Below the pieces are notes generated by a model. It was not told where the DNA came from and searched no databases. It saw nothing but the letters and a program-made list of their open reading frames with translations. Positions 2,530 through 35,113 of a stretch of DNA of 36,029 nt are shown here, piece by piece. The stretch comes from a virus. The position numbers were made by a program, and so were the translations under genes. The DNA is taken from IMG/VR virus record IMGVR_UViG_3300030107_002598, positions 1 through 36,029 of that record, one strand, 5' to 3'. Each line of letters begins with the position of its first letter. Position 1 is the first letter of the stretch.

Positions 2530-3009
2530 ATGGCTATTTCAGCCGACGTCCTCGCTTCGGCGCTACAGGATCTAGCGCCGGGGTATTCCGAAACCTTCAT
2601 GAAGTGGCATCCGATCTTTGAGAAGATTGTCGCTCGTGGAGGAGTTCAAACCAAGGACCTTCAAGGCCCATACAAGCAGTTCACTGTGGTTACGCAGGGA
2701 CCCGGCTCGACGACGGAAGTTGTCTACGGTTCGGAGCTTGTGAAGGGTGGTCGTAAGCAGGTTGCCTCCTCGGGCACCAGCTACGCCCCGCGCCTCATTC
2801 ACGCGTTCGACGTTCCCCGTAAGGAACTCGACGAGGCGAATGGCGCACAAGACTTGGCGCGTATCCTTGAGAAGTACCCGGAGCTAGCCATGGGCGAGTT
2901 CCATGAGCAGATTGCTTCGCAGCTTGGTACGGGCGCAGGCGCTAACAACCTGGGCGGCTTCATGACGCTCAATGGTGGCGTAGGCGATGCCAGTGCGGGC
3001 AACCCGTAA
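2530..3009 (+). CDS. Major capsid protein, N-terminal half (frame broken)
   Basis: This frame encodes 159 residues and ends at TAA 3007-3009. It begins MAISADVLASALQDLAPGYS and contains the N-arm and E-loop-like segment of an HK97-fold coat protein of the epsilon15 gp7 type: KQFTVVTQGPGSTTEVVYG, then FDVPRKELDEANGAQDLARI and FHEQIASQLGTGAGANNLGG. The rest of the fold continues in the next frame downstream. No stable coat protein is expected from this half alone. The two halves together give about 358 residues, near the usual length for the family. Either one extra base is present in the sequence or ribosomes shift +1 here. The most likely junction is between 2984 and 3007. Confidence 0.8.
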   Translation: MAISADVLASALQDLAPGYSETFMKWHPIFEKIVARGGVQTKDLQGPYKQFTVVTQGPGSTTEVVYGSELVKGGRKQVASSGTSYAPRLIHAFDVPRKELDEANGAQDLARILEKYPELAMGEFHEQIASQLGTGAGANNLGGFMTLNGGVGDASAGNP

Positions 3010-3607
3010 CGGACTCTTCGAGTTCGCGGCCCCCGCTTCGCAGGCTGGCGTTGTCCATGCTCTCGACAAGGGCACCGTGACTGGTTGGGAAAACCAGTTC
3101 GAGACCATCTCCGGTTTCGCGAACGACGGTCGTCGCAAGATGCGCGAAGTGTACTACACTTGTTCGCGTCAGGGCAAGACTCGCGGCAAGGTCGATCTGA
3201 TCTTGGCTGATGAGGCTTCATACCACAACTACCTCGAAGACCTTGAGGACTTCGTGCAGGTTGGTAGCGTTGAGAACGATCACTCCCCCGCCGACGTGCG
3301 TCAGGGCGTGAAGTTCATGGACGCGACGATGTGGCTGGAAGATGCCATCGACATCACGAGCACTGCCTTCCCGACCAACTCCGGTCGTAGCGGTGGTACC
3401 TCGCCAGGTGTGATGTACTTCCTCAACTCGAAGACCTTCCACGCTTACACCCTTTCGGGTGAGGGCGGCGGCGGTTACTTCAAGACCTCTGGCCCGTTCC
3501 GTATTCCGGAGCAGGACCTGTTCCGCTATGAGATCATCCTCTACATGGGTCTCTACTGCGACCAACTCCGAGCCAACGGTGCCATCATCGGTGGCGCGAA
3601 CGCCTAG
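2987..3607 (+). CDS. Major capsid protein, C-terminal half (frame broken)
   Basis: This frame carries the rest of the coat protein. The ATG at 2987 is probably not a real start; no ribosome binding site suits it, and the coding part is best read from about 3008. The P-domain helix (GWENQFETISGFANDGRRKM) precedes a VDLILADEASYHNYLEDL strand-helix. The C-terminal A-domain shows GVMYFLNSKTFHAY and later DLFRYEIILYMGLYC followed by NGAIIGGANA. In the epsilon15-gp7-type coat family the matching segments read like HMYFLNTK and ILWMGNL, which is why this family is proposed. The protein would form the icosahedral shell. The stop at 3605-3607 is followed by GGGAGG for the next gene. Confidence 0.8.
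   Translation: MPVRATRNGLFEFAAPASQAGVVHALDKGTVTGWENQFETISGFANDGRRKMREVYYTCSRQGKTRGKVDLILADEASYHNYLEDLEDFVQVGSVENDHSPADVRQGVKFMDATMWLEDAIDITSTAFPTNSGRSGGTSPGVMYFLNSKTFHAYTLSGEGGGGYFKTSGPFRIPEQDLFRYEIILYMGLYCDQLRANGAIIGGANA
3001..3010 (+). other. Frame-change site in the capsid gene
   Basis: The zero frame reads GGC AAC CCG TAA and the downstream frame needs a +1 move, after which translation reads AAC GGA CTC TTC (N G L F). CCG-TAA is a poor slip site because the proline tRNA cannot re-pair well with CGT. Deleting one C from the CCC at 3003-3005, or one G from 2997-2999, would restore a single frame. A base-call or natural indel is therefore favoured over programmed shifting. Confidence 0.6.
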
Positions 3608-3618
3608 GGAGGTTCGAT

Positions 3619-4119
3619 ATGTCTGGAACTGCTTTTGGTGGAAGTGTTACTCGCGTAACGACCACCCAGGAATTGCCACTCGGCTTCCAAGTTACCGTCC
3701 CGAATGGTGATCTTGGGATGCAGAAGTGGGTCTACGTCTTCAATGACGAGGCTTCGACTGCTTTTGCCGTCGGGCAAATCATCTACCGCGACCCAAGTGC
3801 GGCCACGCAGGACTTTTACGGGGGGCTTATTGCGCCCGTAGATGTCCACCAGCCCAAGGTCATGGTGTTGGGTGTTGCCCAACATGCCATCGCCGCAGGC
3901 TCGTATGGCTTCATTCTTCTGAAGGGTGTCGGCACAATCTTGGCGGGCACTGCCGCGTTGACATTGGACACCCCGTTCACCTCTGGCGGCGCGGACAATG
4001 CCGGTAGGGCTATCGACTACGCTGATGGCACTAACAACGAAAATATCGCTGTTATCGGACACACAGCCACTGCCATTGCTGGCGATGCCACCGGTACCGC
4101 TTACATCGACTGTGACTGA
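3619..4119 (+). CDS. Capsid decoration / head-associated protein (putative)
   Basis: The 166-residue protein is rich in Ala, Gly, Thr and Val, with predicted beta strands and no membrane segment. The pattern ...VLGVAQHAIAAGSYGFILLKG followed by GTILAG and NIAVIGHTATAIAG is typical of small beta-barrel proteins coded directly after a capsid gene, which bind the outside of the shell or form fibre bases. GGGAGG stands 5-6 bases before the ATG. The assignment rests on position and beta pattern. It shares the general style of the protein at 21017-21916, but no close alignment is claimed. Confidence 0.55.
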   Translation: MSGTAFGGSVTRVTTTQELPLGFQVTVPNGDLGMQKWVYVFNDEASTAFAVGQIIYRDPSAATQDFYGGLIAPVDVHQPKVMVLGVAQHAIAAGSYGFILLKGVGTILAGTAALTLDTPFTSGGADNAGRAIDYADGTNNENIAVIGHTATAIAGDATGTAYIDCD

Positions 4120-4141
4120 CATCTGATTTGGAGAGGCGACC

Positions 4142-5656
4142 ATGAACCTGAAGGATATCCGACAGGCTATCTTTGATTCGGCGGATTGGTCGCCCCTCCA
4201 AAGTTCAGACGCGGTGGGCACTGCCAACCGCTTCATCAACCGTGCTTACAATGTAATCGCGGAAGATGCCCCCTATCTGTTCTTCGAGTCGCAGGTGAAG
4301 CTGGCGACGAAGGCAGATTTTTCGCCGGGGACTGGCGATACTCTAGAGATGACCACAGTAGATGACTACTGGGTGCTCACTCGTAGTGCCGCAGGCACTA
4401 CTGCTGGCGGGTGGCCTACGGCTGCCGCCGATGATGGGGACTGGGATGGCAGAATGATTGCCATTACAGATCCCCGTGGTGTCGTTCGTAGACGTCGAAT
4501 CCGTACAATGTGGAAGGATGGATCTACAGAGTACCTCACGATTGACAAGCCGTGGCCGAACATCACGGACACGGGAATGACCTACAAGGTCTACTCGGAC
4601 GCATACTACCTGCCAGACGATGTCATCATGGTCAACTCGATGCGCCTCTACGAGGACGGCAAGACTTGGCCACTCGTTATGGTAGGACAGCTTGAGGCGG
4701 AAGATGCGGGGTTCGTCGATACGACTTCGAATTCCATTACTGGGGTTCCTCGATACGCATTCCGCCGAGGTCATTTTAAGCTACCGTCTCCTGCCACTGC
4801 ACCCGTCGCAACCGTCACAAGCGACACCGGCTCGTTCGATACGGCAGAGTTTGAGGCACCCGGTACGTTTCGCTACATCTACACTTGGGTATGGGGCCGA
4901 CGTGATGATGAAGTTGCGGACATGGGGCCACTGACTAACGCATCGGGTGGGGCACCTCGTAAGCGTCCGCCGATGTGGGAGTCTTCTCCCAGCCCGGCGA
5001 GTGCGCTAGTCACGGTAGCCCGGGACCAGAAGGTTACGCTGACGATCCCGCCGAACCCCCACCTCCTGGGCTTCGGAGACGACGCAGGCGGACGCTACCA
5101 GCGAACAGGGTGGCGAGCCCGCATCTACCGTCGTCGTGAGTCGATTGATACTGCGACGGATGCCCAGACCGCGTTGGAGGTTTCGGACCAGTACTACCTA
5201 ATTGGCGAGCAACTCGCTACGAGTAGTTCTTCCGAGGATACTGGCGTCACTATCCCCGACTACACTCGGAGACTCCGCAATGTCAACGGCTACCAGTCCT
5301 TTGGACTTCATCCGTGGCCTGATGCTCGATACGAGGTCGACATCCGATGCGTTCGGCGTCCCGAGCCTCTCGTCCATGATCAGGATGCTCCTCGACTACA
5401 TCCGGACGCTGTGGAAATCCTAATCCAACAGACGCTCGCCTATATGTACGAGAAGCTGGGCGACTTCAATGGGTTGGCGCTAGCGAACCAGCGCTACGAG
5501 AGTCGACTTTCGGTCCTAGCCAAGCGCTACAGCGACCTTCAATCTTCTGCCGTTGTGACTGCCCGACGCCCAGCCCGGGCTATGAGGGGCGGGCGCAGAC
5601 AGCGCAGATGGTATAAGTTAGTTACGGACTCCGCAAGTTGGGGACCGTTCGGTTGA
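4142..5656 (+). CDS. Head-tail connector / adaptor-like protein (putative)
   Basis: The 504-residue protein starts MNLKDIRQAIFDSADW and has an early helix (AVGTANRFINRAYNVIAEDA) followed by aromatic residues and YYLPDDVIMVNSM, a pattern seen in adaptor or tail-tubular-A-like proteins that bind under the portal. The middle (residues about 220-300) is a beta-rich insertion (TFRYIYTWVWGRRDDEVADM). The C-terminal part returns to helices (DAVEILIQQTLAYMYEKLGD), and the tail is Arg-rich. It lies between the decoration and tail nozzle genes, as expected for a connector. It is larger than T7 gp11 because of the insertion. Other head-completion roles are possible. Confidence 0.5.
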   Translation: MNLKDIRQAIFDSADWSPLQSSDAVGTANRFINRAYNVIAEDAPYLFFESQVKLATKADFSPGTGDTLEMTTVDDYWVLTRSAAGTTAGGWPTAAADDGDWDGRMIAITDPRGVVRRRRIRTMWKDGSTEYLTIDKPWPNITDTGMTYKVYSDAYYLPDDVIMVNSMRLYEDGKTWPLVMVGQLEAEDAGFVDTTSNSITGVPRYAFRRGHFKLPSPATAPVATVTSDTGSFDTAEFEAPGTFRYIYTWVWGRRDDEVADMGPLTNASGGAPRKRPPMWESSPSPASALVTVARDQKVTLTIPPNPHLLGFGDDAGGRYQRTGWRARIYRRRESIDTATDAQTALEVSDQYYLIGEQLATSSSSEDTGVTIPDYTRRLRNVNGYQSFGLHPWPDARYEVDIRCVRRPEPLVHDQDAPRLHPDAVEILIQQTLAYMYEKLGDFNGLALANQRYESRLSVLAKRYSDLQSSAVVTARRPARAMRGGRRQRRWYKLVTDSASWGPFG

Positions 5657-28319: not shown

Positions 28320-29316
28320 TTTTCACCTCGTGTAGGTTGAGTGTTGTCCATCCTTCTCGTGTCGTTTCCCGAACGGTCGGGAAGAGAACTACTCCCCGCA
28401 CACCTTCGGCGGCACCGAGGATGTGTTGGATCATAGTCTCGTCGTAAGCCCGGTCGGGGATGGTGACGATACAAAGGAAGCCCACGGAACCTACGGGGTG
28501 GGGGGGCGAATAGGAGGACGACGCGGCTGCACAGATGGCCGTAGCCAGCAGCACCCACTGGGCTCCTGATGCGTAGCGAAGGGGCATCGTGTCACCCCTA
28601 CTCCGCAGTAGTCCCATCTCGATCTTCTTGTCCGTAACGTTCATGTGGAACTTCATGGGAGCGTGCCTCAATTCGTGGTTAATGCAACGGATGAGGTGTG
28701 GGGCAGAATCCCTAAGTTCATCCCACATTCTCGCCCGGAGATCGTCCACGTCCTGGGACAGGTCCTTAATCTCATACGTTAAGGCACGAAGATCTAAGTC
28801 TGACTCCACGCCATGGCGTCGGAGGAGTTCTATCTCCTCCTCAACCGCCTTGAGCTTCTTCTTGAGGGAAGCGAGTCGCCTCTTCCGTCGCTTCCACTTG
28901 ACCACGTCAGCTTCCATCCCACAGAAGAGGTCTACGAGGATGGCCAGCCTTGTGTCAGGACCTCCCCGAATAGCTCCCATGACTTCGTCCATGAGGTAGC
29001 GGACCCGTCCCGGAAGATCGACATGGGTGGCGCGCTTACCGGGCTTCAGTCCCCAGAAAGCTACATGTCCTGACGAGAGGGTTAACTCGGAGTAGGGTGA
29101 GCGGTGGATGTCCCCGAGTTCGATGAGGTCCGAGCCTGCCTTGACTACAGCGAACTGGTCCTTCCCTCCTAGGTCCTGCCCGGAACCCACAAGCCCGAGG
29201 CGTAGGGCATTCAACAGCATGGTCTTACCCACTCCGTTGCCGCCAACGATGATGGTTCGGGGACCGATGTCGAACTCTAGGTCTTTCTCAAACAGTAGGT
29301 TGGTTCTGATTTTCAT
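28312..29316 (-). CDS. SbcC/RecF-like ATPase with short coiled coil
   Basis: The ATG at 29316 gives the TATGA overlap with the polymerase stop; a longer frame to 29382 lies inside the polymerase gene. The 334-residue protein has Walker A GGNGVGKT (residues 25-32) after a strand-rich N-terminus, as in SbcC, Rad50 and RecF. A short coiled coil follows near residues 145-210 (LASLKKKLKAVEEEIELLRR), then an ABC-signature-like SGAQ. The expected Walker B (hhhhDEP) reads CIVTIPDRAYD, so the usual Asp and Glu seem to be replaced. It may pair with the metallophosphoesterase at 25781-26839, or act as a RecF-like loader. ATP hydrolysis is uncertain. Confidence 0.7.
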   Translation of the reverse strand: MKIRTNLLFEKDLEFDIGPRTIIVGGNGVGKTMLLNALRLGLVGSGQDLGGKDQFAVVKAGSDLIELGDIHRSPYSELTLSSGHVAFWGLKPGKRATHVDLPGRVRYLMDEVMGAIRGGPDTRLAILVDLFCGMEADVVKWKRRKRRLASLKKKLKAVEEEIELLRRHGVESDLDLRALTYEIKDLSQDVDDLRARMWDELRDSAPHLIRCINHELRHAPMKFHMNVTDKKIEMGLLRSRGDTMPLRYASGAQWVLLATAICAAASSSYSPPHPVGSVGFLCIVTIPDRAYDETMIQHILGAAEGVRGVVLFPTVRETTREGWTTLNLHEVKND

Positions 29317-31757
29317 ACCATTCTCTCTTGAATCTCTGCCTCGGCGCTGAACTCTACGCCCAGGACAGTACGTGTTAAGCATTGCTCTACGATTCTTGCG
29401 GTTCTCTCTGCGTCTTCCTCCTTCACTAGGTACAACACACTGTCGTGCATTTGGTTGACGAGACCCGTGCGGGCCTCGAAGTCTGGTTGGATTCTCTCGC
29501 TAAGGTCGGCGAGGCCCATGGCGACTACGCCAAAGCCTCCCGCTTGGCAAGGAAAGTTGACAATAGCGGAGAGGTCCTCCCCGTTGGCGAAGTCACATCG
29601 CCTGCCCAGTACGGGGTCGAGCACGTAGCCCCGGCTACGCCACCCCTGAACCTCTGCCTTCCACCACTCCTCGAACTGTGGTGCTCCCTGCTTCCAGCGT
29701 CGGTGCAAGGCAGACACCTTGCGCACGTTGTAATGGGCGTAGATGAGGTTCCCGCTAGCATCCTCGGCACTGGTTAGCTGTTTGTGGATGGTCGTCGGAG
29801 ACGCCCCGTAGAGGCTCGCATAGCATAGGGTCTTGGCGAGGTCCCTCGCTGCCTTGAACTGTCCCTTACCCTTCTTGGTCTTATCCTTGGGAGCACCGTC
29901 GATCTTCCAGTAGGCATCCCCGAACATAGCCTGACCCGTAATGCCGTGAGGCTCGATGGGTATCTCCCCCTTGAACGACTTGAGGTACATGTCAGCGCCC
30001 GCAACGGCTGCGGCTAACCTTAACTCTAGCTGGTCCATGTCCGCGTAAACGAACCGGTAGCCCGGAGGGGCTGCGAAGATGTCGCGGATAGAGTAGGGCA
30101 GCGTCTGGAAGATGTCCGACGTGAAGCGTCCCGACATCGTACCGTGGGACGAGTAGTCAGCGTGGACCCAGCCGTCCCGGGCTTTATCTGCGATGGGTAG
30201 GAGGTACGTGGTGATCAACTTGTTAGCCCTACGCCACTGCCGTATGGCCTTGAGGTACTCTCGCTGGTCCTCGTCGATGATCGGGTTGCTGATTAGGGCA
30301 CGAAGGCTGGCGTCGTTGGTACTCGGCACGCCTGCCGCCGTGAAGTCCTGGGGAGGCAGGTGCCACTGGTAGTACAGTAGCTCTGCCAACTGCGTATGGG
30401 AGCCCGGATTGACGCTGGGTGCCTGCTGAACTAAGGCGCGAAGCCACTTGGCTCGCTCCTTCTCCTGCTTGGTGAGGTGTTCGAGGCGTCGGTTGTTGTC
30501 CAGGGGTAGACCTAGCCGCTTCATCTGGACGCACAGACCCTGCATCTTGCTGTCGAGTTCGAAGACCTTGGCTTGACCCCTGTCCGTCATGGAACGGAAC
30601 ACCTGGGGCGCACAGAGGCTCGTGACGGTGATGTCTCGGGCGTTGTATTGGTGTAGCTCCGCATCCGTCCGGGCTTCCGTAGCCGTATGGTCAGCCTTCC
30701 AGGCAGGAGCGTCGGTAAACTCGGCACCAACAAAGCCTAGGGAGTGGAAGACCTCATTGTTGTGGAGGCGATGGGCCAAGATCATGTCGAGGTGAGGCGT
30801 CGGAGTCACCCCAAGCCAGTTCTCGGTGACGATACGGTCGAAGTAGCCACTGTTATGGCCCACGATAGCCGTCTTAGGGTCCGTGAACAGGTCTCGGAGC
30901 GCTTCCTTGACCTCCTCGAACTGTTTGTCGGTGTACCAGTCCTGCTTCCCCGTCTCGATGGAGACCCAGGGGATGACAAGGACGTCGAGCCCTCGACCTA
31001 CGCCGAGACAGGTGGGAGTGACGAGCAATGTGTCGTCGCGAGTGGTCTCCCAGTCATATGCGACAGCCTTACCTCGCCATCGAGCCACTGCGTCCCGCGT
31101 TTGTTGGGGAGTGGGTCCGATGATGGGGACAGGCTCGGTCCAGTCGAGTTGTCCCTTGAAGTGGCGGGATGCCTTGATGATGTCGTGGCGGAAGTAGTGT
31201 CGCCACTTGGGTTGGTACCGCACGAGACCAGGGTCCTCGGTCGCGAGCACCTTGGTGCCGCTGTCGAGGGTGATGGGTGCCCCTCGCACGTCACGGAGGA
31301 CCGGAGCGCCGGGTAGGACAGCCTTGGTGGGGAAGGTACCGCACGTCAGGATGTTCTTGTGCTGCCGCATCTCCGCTTCGAGTCGCGGACGGCAGCACTC
31401 CTCCGGGCTTAGGAGGGGTTCCTCCTTGTTCCGCTTGCGTTGACGGTTGATCCGCTTACGCTTCGCGTCGAACTCTTTCTTCTTGTCCTTGGGATAGCGG
31501 CAGGCCACAGTCGTAGTCCACGACACGGTGTCGCGGGAGTAGCCTGCACGCTCTAAGGCTTCGAGGGCTTCGGCACCGTCTGGTCCGACGCCGGGGGCAC
31601 CTCGAAGCTCGTCTCGCTTGGAGGGGAACGGTAAGACCACCAGGGTATCGCTGTTAAGCTCCGCAGGGACGGGGCGAAAGCTCCCCTCCTTACGCAGGTG
31701 GATACCCAAGGCGCACTGGTCACATGCCGCCAGGCTTAGGCAGTCTTTACCGTTCAT
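29313..31757 (-). CDS. polA: DNA polymerase, family A, with N-terminal UDG-like domain
   Basis: The 814-residue protein has three parts. Residues 1-200 resemble 4Fe-4S uracil-DNA glycosylases, with cluster cysteines C12, C15, C86 and C121 or C122, but the catalytic GExPG is LPFPS and the HP motif is EDP, so it is probably inactive. Residues 230-380 are a 3'-5' exonuclease: DWE (D235, E237), HNSGYFD (N302, D307) and YNARD (Y371, D375). Residues 420-814 are the polymerase: motif A ADMDQLELR (D573), O-helix RDLAKTLCYASLYG (K642, Y646, Y650) and motif C HDS (H771, D772). Y646 aligns with E. coli Pol I Phe762. A similar fusion is known in SPO1. GGAG stands five bases before the ATG, inside a small hairpin. 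Confidence 0.93.
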   Translation of the reverse strand: MNGKDCLSLAACDQCALGIHLRKEGSFRPVPAELNSDTLVVLPFPSKRDELRGAPGVGPDGAEALEALERAGYSRDTVSWTTTVACRYPKDKKKEFDAKRKRINRQRKRNKEEPLLSPEECCRPRLEAEMRQHKNILTCGTFPTKAVLPGAPVLRDVRGAPITLDSGTKVLATEDPGLVRYQPKWRHYFRHDIIKASRHFKGQLDWTEPVPIIGPTPQQTRDAVARWRGKAVAYDWETTRDDTLLVTPTCLGVGRGLDVLVIPWVSIETGKQDWYTDKQFEEVKEALRDLFTDPKTAIVGHNSGYFDRIVTENWLGVTPTPHLDMILAHRLHNNEVFHSLGFVGAEFTDAPAWKADHTATEARTDAELHQYNARDITVTSLCAPQVFRSMTDRGQAKVFELDSKMQGLCVQMKRLGLPLDNNRRLEHLTKQEKERAKWLRALVQQAPSVNPGSHTQLAELLYYQWHLPPQDFTAAGVPSTNDASLRALISNPIIDEDQREYLKAIRQWRRANKLITTYLLPIADKARDGWVHADYSSHGTMSGRFTSDIFQTLPYSIRDIFAAPPGYRFVYADMDQLELRLAAAVAGADMYLKSFKGEIPIEPHGITGQAMFGDAYWKIDGAPKDKTKKGKGQFKAARDLAKTLCYASLYGASPTTIHKQLTSAEDASGNLIYAHYNVRKVSALHRRWKQGAPQFEEWWKAEVQGWRSRGYVLDPVLGRRCDFANGEDLSAIVNFPCQAGGFGVVAMGLADLSERIQPDFEARTGLVNQMHDSVLYLVKEEDAERTARIVEQCLTRTVLGVEFSAEAEIQERMV

Positions 31758-31760
31758 CTT

Positions 31761-31773
31761 CTCTCCAAGGGAG
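31761..31773 (-). promoter_or_regulatory. Small hairpin covering the polymerase ribosome binding site
   Basis: In the polymerase mRNA the Shine-Dalgarno GGAG (31766-31763) can pair with CUCC (31773-31770) across a three-base loop. A second CUCCC just upstream offers an alternative partner. The stem is short (4 bp), so any control of polymerase translation would be mild unless combined with the larger stem-loops upstream. Confidence 0.35.
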
Positions 31774-31841
31774 GTGGGAGGCAGGGGATAGGTGAAGCAC
31801 GGGGTACGCAGACACTGGACCTACGAGCACGAGTGTCCGCT

Positions 31842-32087
31842 CAGGAGCGCTGTAGGCTAGCCTCTTTGTTGCGCCCGCTCACCTTATCCCCCACCGACTC
31901 TGTCGGATATCGCCGACAGCCCACAAAGCCAGGAGGGCGAGGGTACTACGCTCGGAGGAATCCCACAACCCCCATGGATACCCCCGCCCTCAAGAAATTA
32001 GGGCCAGGAGAGCAAGGGTACCTAGTGCTAGCTTAACTTGGCCTCACCTTAGCCCGACGCTAGGTACCCTTGCCCTCAAGAAATTAG
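31842..32087 (-). repeat. Array of structured stem-loop units between SSB and polymerase genes
   Basis: The 326-bp gap between the SSB-like and polymerase genes holds two adjacent units, 31928-32001 and 32003-32087. On the + strand each starts GCCAGGAGRGCRAGGGTAC and ends GCCCTCAAGAAATTAG, and each folds on itself. Stem 1 pairs 31933-31946 with 31978-31991; stem 2 pairs 32008-32025 with 32060-32077. A degraded third unit at 31842-31898 shares CAGGAG, GCTAGC, CTCACCTTA-CCC and CCGAC with unit 2 in order. It is followed by a perfect hairpin, CTGTCGG/CCGACAG, at 31900-31919. All A.C mismatches on the + strand are G.U pairs in - strand RNA. The outer end overlaps the SSB stop codon. A structured RNA or a replication origin is likely. 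The rest of the gap, 31758-31841, shows only the small ribosome-site hairpin and a GACACT/AGTGTC dyad. Confidence 0.8.
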
Positions 32088-34362: not shown

Positions 34363-34471
34363 CTTCCTTCTCCCTCTTCTTCCGTTTCTTCTTTGGTATG
34401 GATGCGATCAGGCTTGCGATAAGTCCGACCAGCTTGACAATAGGTATTACAATCTTGGCTGGCTTCTTCAC
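34349..34471 (-). CDS. 40-residue cationic membrane-active-type peptide
   Basis: A small reading frame from GTG at 34471, with GGAG seven bases upstream. The product starts VKKPAKIVIPIVKLVGLIAS, continues with a hydrophobic/amphipathic helix (about residues 7-26), then PKKKRKKREKEDEAD. A short hydrophobic helix with a Lys/Arg cluster fits a membrane-associated peptide such as a small lysis or anti-holin factor. It overlaps the nuclease start by 14 bases, in line with coupled translation in this operon. No homologue is recalled with certainty. Its sequence has a clean hydrophobic-charged division, which supports it being coding. Confidence 0.5.
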   Translation of the reverse strand: MKKPAKIVIPIVKLVGLIASLIASIPKKKRKKREKEDEAD

Positions 34472-34522
34472 GAGTAGTCTCCACGTGGTTAAGTAAGGTT
34501 CAACCAATACTTTGGAGGACCT

Positions 34523-34792
34523 GTGTTAGAGGTAGCACGCAGGCTCGCAGTGTACTCGGTCGCCTACGTTGTCCTCCAAGTCATCACAGGTATCGAGGTA
34601 GCCCTGGTATCGGTGGCGCTAGTGCTGTTCGCAGAGTGGCCCCTGGTCGGAGCACTAGCGTTCACCACACCCTTCGGGCTACCACTACTAGTCATCCAGG
34701 CGGCACTAGTAGTGGTAGTCTACGAGAGACTAGAGACAACTCATGGTCGTGGTGAAGAGCAGGATGGCGTAGATTACGCCAATCGCCACTAG
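34523..34792 (+). CDS. Small two-helix membrane protein on opposite strand (holin candidate)
   Basis: An 89-residue protein read from GTG at 34523, with GGAGG four bases before it. It is strongly hydrophobic, with two or three membrane segments (YSVAYVVLQVITGIEVALVS; VALVLFAEWPLVGALAF; LPLLVIQAALVVVVYE) and a polar C-terminus. It fills the only 250-bp piece of this block without a - strand gene, and its 3' end overlaps the convergent gene at 34730-35113 by 63 bases. Small size, two or more helices and nearness to an amidase fit a holin. The opposite orientation is odd and lowers confidence. Confidence 0.5.
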   Translation: MLEVARRLAVYSVAYVVLQVITGIEVALVSVALVLFAEWPLVGALAFTTPFGLPLLVIQAALVVVVYERLETTHGRGEEQDGVDYANRH

Positions 34793-35113
34793 TACCACAC
34801 GAGTAGCCATACCCTCTAGGCCGCACTTGACCTTAGTGTCCTGTAGTTCCCGCGCCTTTCGGTAGGAGGGAACCTTCTGCCACTCACCCTTGGTGAGTCC
34901 TAGGTGCTCACAGAACCGCCTGCCTGTGACAGCAGACTTCACCGTAGAGGGACACTTCACGTACTCGACGCAAGGTTGTCCGGTGTCCTTGGTCGAGGTG
35001 CCTGTCATGGACATGTAGAGGGTATCAGGAAACTGTCGTGGGTAGTCGTAGTCGTAGCGACGCCACGCTGCGATTGACAGTTCCAGGTCTATGTCTCGTC
35101 CTATCCACGTCAT
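34730..35113 (-). CDS. Protein with C-terminal membrane anchor, unknown
   Basis: A 127-residue protein. The first 100 residues are soluble (MTWIGRDIDLELSIAAWRRY; RRFCEHLGLTKGEWQKVPSY), and the last 26 hold a hydrophobic helix (TRVVLVAIGVIYAILLF), so it is tail-anchored. Its start overlaps the amidase stop (ATGA), which makes a lysis-linked role possible, for example amidase control or membrane targeting. Four cysteines are present, one in the last residues (MSCL). The 3' end overlaps the + strand membrane gene. Confidence 0.55.
   Translation of the reverse strand: MTWIGRDIDLELSIAAWRRYDYDYPRQFPDTLYMSMTGTSTKDTGQPCVEYVKCPSTVKSAVTGRRFCEHLGLTKGEWQKVPSYRKARELQDTKVKCGLEGMATRVVLVAIGVIYAILLFTTTMSCL

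Follow-up and report, generated by a model that had tools for sequence, protein, structure and literature searches.

A conserved slot for structured RNA between the SSB and DNA polymerase genes of an uncultured-phage lineage

The SSB-polymerase gap of the replication operon

The window, by which we mean the whole stretch of 36,029 nucleotides analysed here (IMG/VR virus record IMGVR_UViG_3300030107_002598, positions 1 to 36,029), comes from an uncultured phage. Its plus-strand genes up to ∼26.8 kb encode virion proteins, with weak matches to head and tail families, and from ∼26.8 kb on a minus-strand operon runs leftward. The operon includes genes for an amidase, a PD-(D/E)XK exonuclease, an AAA ATPase, an SbcC/AAA_23-like ATPase and a Dam-like methylase, together with an SSB-like gene (DUF669, PF05037; 32084-32590, minus strand, stop codon TAA at 32086-32084), related to the SSB open reading frames of the relatives described below, and a family A DNA polymerase gene (29313-31757, minus strand). 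The SSB gene is transcribed before the polymerase gene. Most operon genes overlap or abut, and only two long gaps occur, at 31758-32083 between SSB and polymerase and at 34363-34729. Elsewhere in the window, the major head protein (phrog_9953) is split into overlapping plus-strand frames at 2530-3009 and 2987-3607 (2530-3607 in all), which represents either a programmed frameshift or a sequence error. Also on the plus strand, a long stem at 4127-4202, which starts 8 nt past the stop codon of gene 3619-4119, sequesters both the GGAGAGG site and the ATG (4142) of the next gene, which encodes a 504-aa tail protein; the fold z-scores of this stem are -4.9 sense and -6.1 antisense, and it could possibly serve translational coupling.

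In order of transcription, the minus strand of the SSB-polymerase gap carries unit 2 (32087-32003), unit 1 (32001-31928), a 7-bp hairpin (31919-31900) and a branched domain (31895-31780). The initial annotation had described two adjacent units with common ends and different middles, and these are real: on the minus strand both start with CTAATTTCTT and end with CCTGGC, lead and tail being exact, and the first lead (32087-32078) overlaps the SSB stop codon as described. In unit 2 (32003-32087), the CUAAUUUCUU lead is followed by an 18-pair stem (arms 32060-32077 and 32008-32025) with a 34-nt loop region and by the CCUGGC tail. Unit 1 (31928-32001) has the same lead and tail around a 14-pair stem (arms 31978-31991 and 31933-31946), with a predicted inner GGGGG/CCUCC stem, so that both stems have the lengths first given. 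Identity between the units is 91% over a 23-nt repeat and 89% over a 19-nt repeat. Both units, as minus-strand RNA, form every one of the 14 shared stem pairs, 10 of them invariant, 3 as wobbles and 1 with a two-sided change (32014-32071 versus 31939-31985). This one pair in 14 is the double compensating change already noted, and the three A.C mismatches of the plus strand, which become G.U wobbles on the minus strand, are likewise as described. The two-copy covariation within the window is not significant, 228 of 500 shuffles being equally high.

The perfect 7-bp hairpin that had been placed further along lies at 31900-31919 on the minus strand (CUGUCGG, a 6-nt loop and CCGACAG). A decayed third copy of the unit had been suspected as well; a search of the window with a model of the two units gave no further minus-strand copy and ruled out the branched domain (31780-31895) as one. 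This third domain is a separate, predicted fold, whose outer stem joins 31877-31895 to 31780-31798 with one bulge. Its end lies near the polymerase ribosome-binding region (GGAGAGAAG-AUG, 31758-31769, minus strand), which by predicted fold may be held in a local CUCC/GGAG hairpin.

The inverted repeat at 32008-32077 is the top-scoring one of the window (score 15.5; gapless search, span ≤120 nt), and none of 200 shuffles of the SSB-polymerase gap matched its score. The runner-up (score 14, 34679-34718) lies in the operon's other long gap. By plain folding of 100-nt windows on the minus strand, 32008-32077 placed third, with two other places higher. Fold z-scores (minus strand first, then plus strand) were -5.1 and -3.6 for the whole gap, -4.1 and -3.9 for unit 2 alone, and -2.3 and -1.6 for unit 1 alone; over the first 110 nt past the SSB stop, the antisense score (-5.0) was lower than the sense score (-4.1). 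A strand-neutral count of wobbles in the gap gave 7 G.T and 4 A.C, and the window's own strand signal is weak. The tail of the stem, CTGGCCCTAA, has 2 T in 8 nt and no U tract, in agreement with the initial annotation. A scan of the gap for hairpins with a U tract found none, the scan allowing loops of 3-8 nt only and being blind to these stems, and no sigma-70-like site was found in the gap.

The first stem-loop of the second long gap (34670-34729, minus strand; inverted repeat 34679-34718) starts ∼10 nt past the stop of gene 34730-35113 and also has no T tract. Fold z-scores there were -4.0 on the minus and -1.6 on the plus strand for the whole gap, and -3.4 and -4.7 for the first stem alone. 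As neither intergenic cluster of the window has a U tail, termination is unlikely at both. Besides its strong stem-loops, this gap contains a 40-aa minus-strand frame (34471-34349) whose C-terminal half is basic; neither this frame nor an 89-aa plus-strand frame across the gap nor the preceding gene had a match in the relative loci searched (E 0.1).

A conserved position behind the SSB stop codon

The lineage was reached only through alignments of the window polymerase with distant polymerases. Single-sequence searches of viral contigs with the polymerase and the SSB gave no relatives, nor did a genome contig collection yield any relatives of the window lineage, and there was no match for the region's DNA in phage and plasmid collections or for the SSB protein in a tblastn search of phage records. 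Among viral contigs, the lead CTAATTTCTTGAGGGC had 17 single matches, about the chance number by a rough estimate. The one match to the unit pattern in these contigs, a palindromic one, was rejected; it lies inside a long open frame of a contig with no operon-protein matches at E <0.4. Aligning the polymerase with three distant ones led to at least 80 loci, at least 32 of which (L022-L053) stood clearly above the rest, and a tighter polymerase alignment led to 67 loci on contigs partly shared with the first set. Wherever matched, the order of exonuclease, AAA ATPase and polymerase was kept in the 32 loci. The SSB was matched directly in 15 of these 32, and a profile search found an SSB frame and a polymerase start together in 71 of the 75 loci examined. 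Removal of 29 near-identical gaps left a non-redundant set of 43, the window included. The polymerase nearest to the window's own, that of L102, is 47% identical, and the placement of the window in the polymerase tree, on a long branch, is unsure; the nearest named phages are ∼25% identical to the polymerase of L024. In L022, an in-frame stop interrupts the polymerase frame (from 5001), through either a contig error or real decay.

A stem with a score of at least 8 began within 30 nt past the SSB stop in 41 of the 43 loci, compared with 8.1% of 1,075 control places in the same loci. L029 and L155 have no strong stem directly behind the SSB and are left out of the distance statistics. From the SSB stop to the stem the median distance is 9 nt (range 5-23, n = 41), independent of gap length, whereas from the first stem to the polymerase start it is 321 nt (range 15-1338, n = 41). 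This short distance to the stop codon and the variable distance to the polymerase indicate that the element is the 3' end of the SSB message. What is conserved is the slot and not the RNA of the window. Ten of 41 loci have a gap of ≤120 nt, mostly filled by the stem and a ribosome-binding site, and there polymerase transcripts should pass through the stem, barring a promoter within the SSB gene. Long gaps often have small open frames behind the first stem.

At least 4 T followed the stem within 8 nt in 27 of the 43 loci and at 0.65% of the control places; the count of 27 is rough, as the inner stem was chosen by script in L024, L114 and L122 and the stem end is debatable in L030, L031, L108, L109, L128, L134 and L161. 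The earlier view that the element is not a simple terminator stands for the window, but in general the slot may serve termination or attenuation. In 30 of the 43 loci, the segment behind the SSB ranked among the best-folding 5% of sense windows in that locus, and in the other 13 it ranked lower. Low ranks were seen in L110, L116, L118 and L124, which carry the class I RNA described below, perhaps because 80-nt windows cut this structure. Other places in the same loci fold equally well or better, and the slot may therefore be one instance of a wider habit. Separately, a very strong long hairpin, its sequence differing between relatives, occupies similar positions in several of them, namely the start, or its vicinity, of a coding frame that lies ∼1 kb downstream of the polymerase gene (L033:5901, L104:9441, L028:8441, L110:9741, L152:9721 and L023:7321).

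Wobble pairs were used to assign the strand, with first stems picked by a rule that treats both strands alike. On the operon strand, first stems had 57 G.T and 6 A.C, versus 372 and 359 at random places in the same loci; 30 loci leaned one way and 1 the other, with 11 ties and L029 without a stem. When every stem within 330 nt of the gap start was counted, the totals were 121 G.T and 34 A.C (29 loci versus 5, 9 ties). This bias against a balanced control indicates selection on RNA of the operon strand, so that the wobble argument, weak in the window, becomes firm through the relatives. Fold z-scores favour the same strand less sharply: sense was lower than antisense in 33 of 43 loci (medians -2.5 versus -1.9), with the reverse in the window. 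Stems behind the SSB stop in nearly all loci and this strand bias together support the initial annotation's proposal of a structured minus-strand RNA with a processing, stabilising or regulatory role.

Different RNAs in the same slot

One gene border in this uncultured-phage lineage is thus nearly always accompanied by strong RNA structure on the transcribed strand, and the RNA differs by sub-lineage. In 17 of the 43 gaps (L023, L024, L025, L026, L027, L047, L107, L108, L110, L114, L115, L116, L118, L122, L124, L128 and L152) it is a three-way-junction RNA, class I, in which an outer stem encloses stem 2 and stem 3, with AAT before stem 2, TA between stems 2 and 3, and two bases after stem 3 (for example, L024:1978-2057 and L152:5680-5993). 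The seed alignment of 17 copies from 13 loci, from which we built covariance model R1, has 96.2% of its cells paired and two-sided changes at 19 of 25 pairs; none of 500 shuffles was as good, and slid registers paired only 45-55%. Covariation also holds when the match alignment is reduced to its 26 distinct rows (L038 among them), and in all three helices, and the joining bases AAT, TA and CG are invariant. Searching 92 loci with R1 returned 38 matches at E ≤1. Thirty-seven of them, in 28 loci (some on the same contig), were strong and accepted, with 30.9-82.2 bits, all on the sense strand and all in the SSB-polymerase gap; the remaining match (L038, E 0.64) is at chance level and lies elsewhere. 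Tandem copies occur, two in seven loci and three in one, and the second copy in L107 extends about a dozen bases beyond the assigned start codon. Among 18 whole records, class I was present in 12 and at no second place (E 0.001). It was found in none of 69 other loci, and compared as DNA with phage records it gave one 23-nt match at chance level. Scans with loose DNA patterns of class I returned chance hits for the most part, and 6 of 13 newly fetched loci were without a model match in the first scan and 35 of 36 loci without a match in the second, whose sole match, L195, was again in the SSB-polymerase gap.

The window had no match to R1 up to E = 10 and, once filters were switched off, scored no more than 8.8 bits in the region. 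R2, a covariance model of the window's two units, had no match below E 4 in the 92 relative loci, the nearest being L130 and L160 (E 4.1). Covariance models on both strands, the approach suggested in the initial annotation, had a divided outcome: the units were not found in any other locus searched, but many relatives carry in the slot a different RNA, a three-way junction with strong covariation. At the gathering cut-off, the only Rfam 15 matches across the window and 39 relative loci were two tRNAs in L046, and weak matches of the window up to E 10 were to eukaryotic families, the best with 18.9 bits against a cut-off of 91. The literature searched, including the excerpt of Weinberg et al. 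2010 (PMC2864571), gave no description of the slot RNA.

Further occupants fall into three classes. Class II, in L109, L134 and L161, is a long structure unlike class I; class III comprises simple long stems that lack a clear U tail (L030, L031, L037, L120, L129 and L130), with 5 T in L037 and 4 T in L120; and class IV comprises terminator-like hairpins, for example in L022, L033, L104, L154 and L156. The class II motif CGTCCCTGTCTTGG ... AGACAGCGG.CGCC was seen at L109:4126, L134:1976, L151:4029 and L143:3601, with GGTAG and GGGTAG stretches. Directly after class I, seven sequences have a second branched RNA with an outer stem AAGC...GCTT and a TTTT tail (L025:3872-3984, L026:2105-2219, L027:2093-2197, L047:3599-3711, and also L114, L116 and L122), in which 4 of 32 predicted pairs have two-sided changes. 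Placed on the polymerase tree, class I requires 4 changes, at least 2 of them forced by well-supported branches, which means that the occupants of the slot were replaced more than once.

Function of the slot and comparison with known systems

SSB is generally made in excess over DNA polymerase. We lean slightly towards a reading in which RNA structure at the 3' end of the SSB message apportions expression between SSB and polymerase. Most relatives would do so by attenuation, and the window's phage by processing or by blocking decay. Long GC-rich stem-loops behind the SSB stop would uncouple SSB expression from that of the polymerase. In most relatives, the stem and the T-rich sequence would form a leaky intrinsic terminator, that is, an attenuator; relatives with a gap of ≤120 nt would have little space for a separate promoter, and their polymerase would be made by read-through. 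Leaky termination would then give more SSB than polymerase, the latter being downstream in the same operon. For the window phage, with its doubled stem-loop and no T tract, a post-transcriptional action would be likeliest. Its stems would block 3'-to-5' exonucleases and/or be cut by a putative host RNase III-type enzyme; as modelled, they provide long double-stranded RNA (18 and 14 pairs) between genes of one operon, as RNase III sites require, and protection and cleavage fit these features alike. The outcome would be an SSB message that is protected and a polymerase message that is separate from it and less abundant. A separate promoter for the polymerase, inside the SSB gene or of another type, may exist. 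According to the excerpt of PMC11696848, terminator stems of up to 14 nt stabilised the upstream mRNA and longer ones did so less, which was ascribed to RNase III. The slot pattern suggests that the output of SSB relative to DNA polymerase is constrained, and we infer that the slot probably sets the amount of each replication protein.

The element could instead be an intrinsic terminator, plain or partial, that has lost its U tract or serves a host RNA polymerase that needs none, a degenerate structure without further role. The T-rich tails in 27 loci and the position directly after the stop codon would fit, but we consider this doubtful: the window keeps two intact stems that differ by one compensating change and otherwise by wobbles only, long stems without a U tract occur in other groups too (L030/L031, L129/L130 and L109/L134/L161), and the invariant joining bases of class I are not needed in a terminator. 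Those bases, together with covariation in three helices, are the usual sign of a recognised fold and speak for a regulatory RNA, an attenuator or operator that binds a protein or ligand, for example SSB or polymerase, with T4-type autoregulation as the model. The confinement of class I to the SSB-polymerase gap in the 18 whole records agrees with such a role. Still, the element sits at the 3' end of SSB, typically hundreds of nucleotides from the polymerase start and not at its ribosome-binding site, and the units of the window do not have the class I fold, which makes a binding RNA improbable. As a tentative suggestion, somewhat more plausible than either of these, the slot may be dedicated to cis-acting RNAs with several unrelated occupants, class I being a new family whose recognised fold binds or senses a partner such as free SSB or the transcribing polymerase and thereby adjusts the SSB:polymerase ratio in the course of infection, and the window units an independent answer to that need.

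Two further accounts concern the window's DNA. The initial annotation had raised an origin of replication, and four related 14-bp boxes in alternating orientation do exist in the replication module, where they might act as DNA in an origin or protein-binding site. Cumulative GC skew peaks locally at 26-27 kb (1.08) and a second time at 32-33 kb (1.07). The skew itself, positive over the polymerase gene, is near zero starting with the gap, and its sign changes several times in the operon. This course is compatible with an origin, but as skew also tracks gene direction and codon use, it is no evidence alone. An origin is unlikely given that the pairing of unit 2 reaches beyond the box, that relatives have unrelated sequences in which the unit model found nothing below E 4, and that selection acts on the RNA strand. 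Most improbable of all is a functionless spacer hairpin from a recent local duplication. It would account for units that occur in one genome only and for repeat ends that are nearly identical, but the middles have diverged while stems and flanks were kept, and the slot is conserved.

With a division of SSB and polymerase expression by the SSB-message 3' end as the preferred reading, the slot can be compared with several known systems. The T4/RB69-type translational operator of the polymerase is a structure at the polymerase ribosome-binding site, unlike the first stem here with its median distance of 321 nt from the polymerase start. Intrinsic terminators and leaky attenuators share with the slot a GC-rich stem-loop directly after a stop codon and, in 27 of 43 loci, a T-rich tail; unlike them, 17 of 43 gaps have a three-way junction in place of a simple loop, and the window has tandem stems of 14 and 18 pairs, which provide the GC-rich stem-loop of an intrinsic terminator but not its U tract. 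To judge from the anatomy of T7 RNase III sites, T7-type processing hairpins are alike in being long intergenic stems in a phage operon, the sites here being putative. A search of the 18 records for a T7-type RNA polymerase, run with no positive control, gave no match. The role of RNase III in T7 is covered in the excerpt of PMC4858673. In Escherichia coli, two adjacent RNase III sites in tandem set the stability of betT mRNA, according to the excerpt of PMC4067347; betT is a bacterial gene and serves as an analogy only. Set against the structured RNAs of Rfam 15, class I has covariation at the level expected of a curated family, yet no match among them, and it is a covarying RNA family absent from that collection. 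Overall, the units of the window are a one-genome version of known intercistronic stem-loops, and the broader result is a conserved RNA slot together with an undescribed, covarying three-way-junction family.
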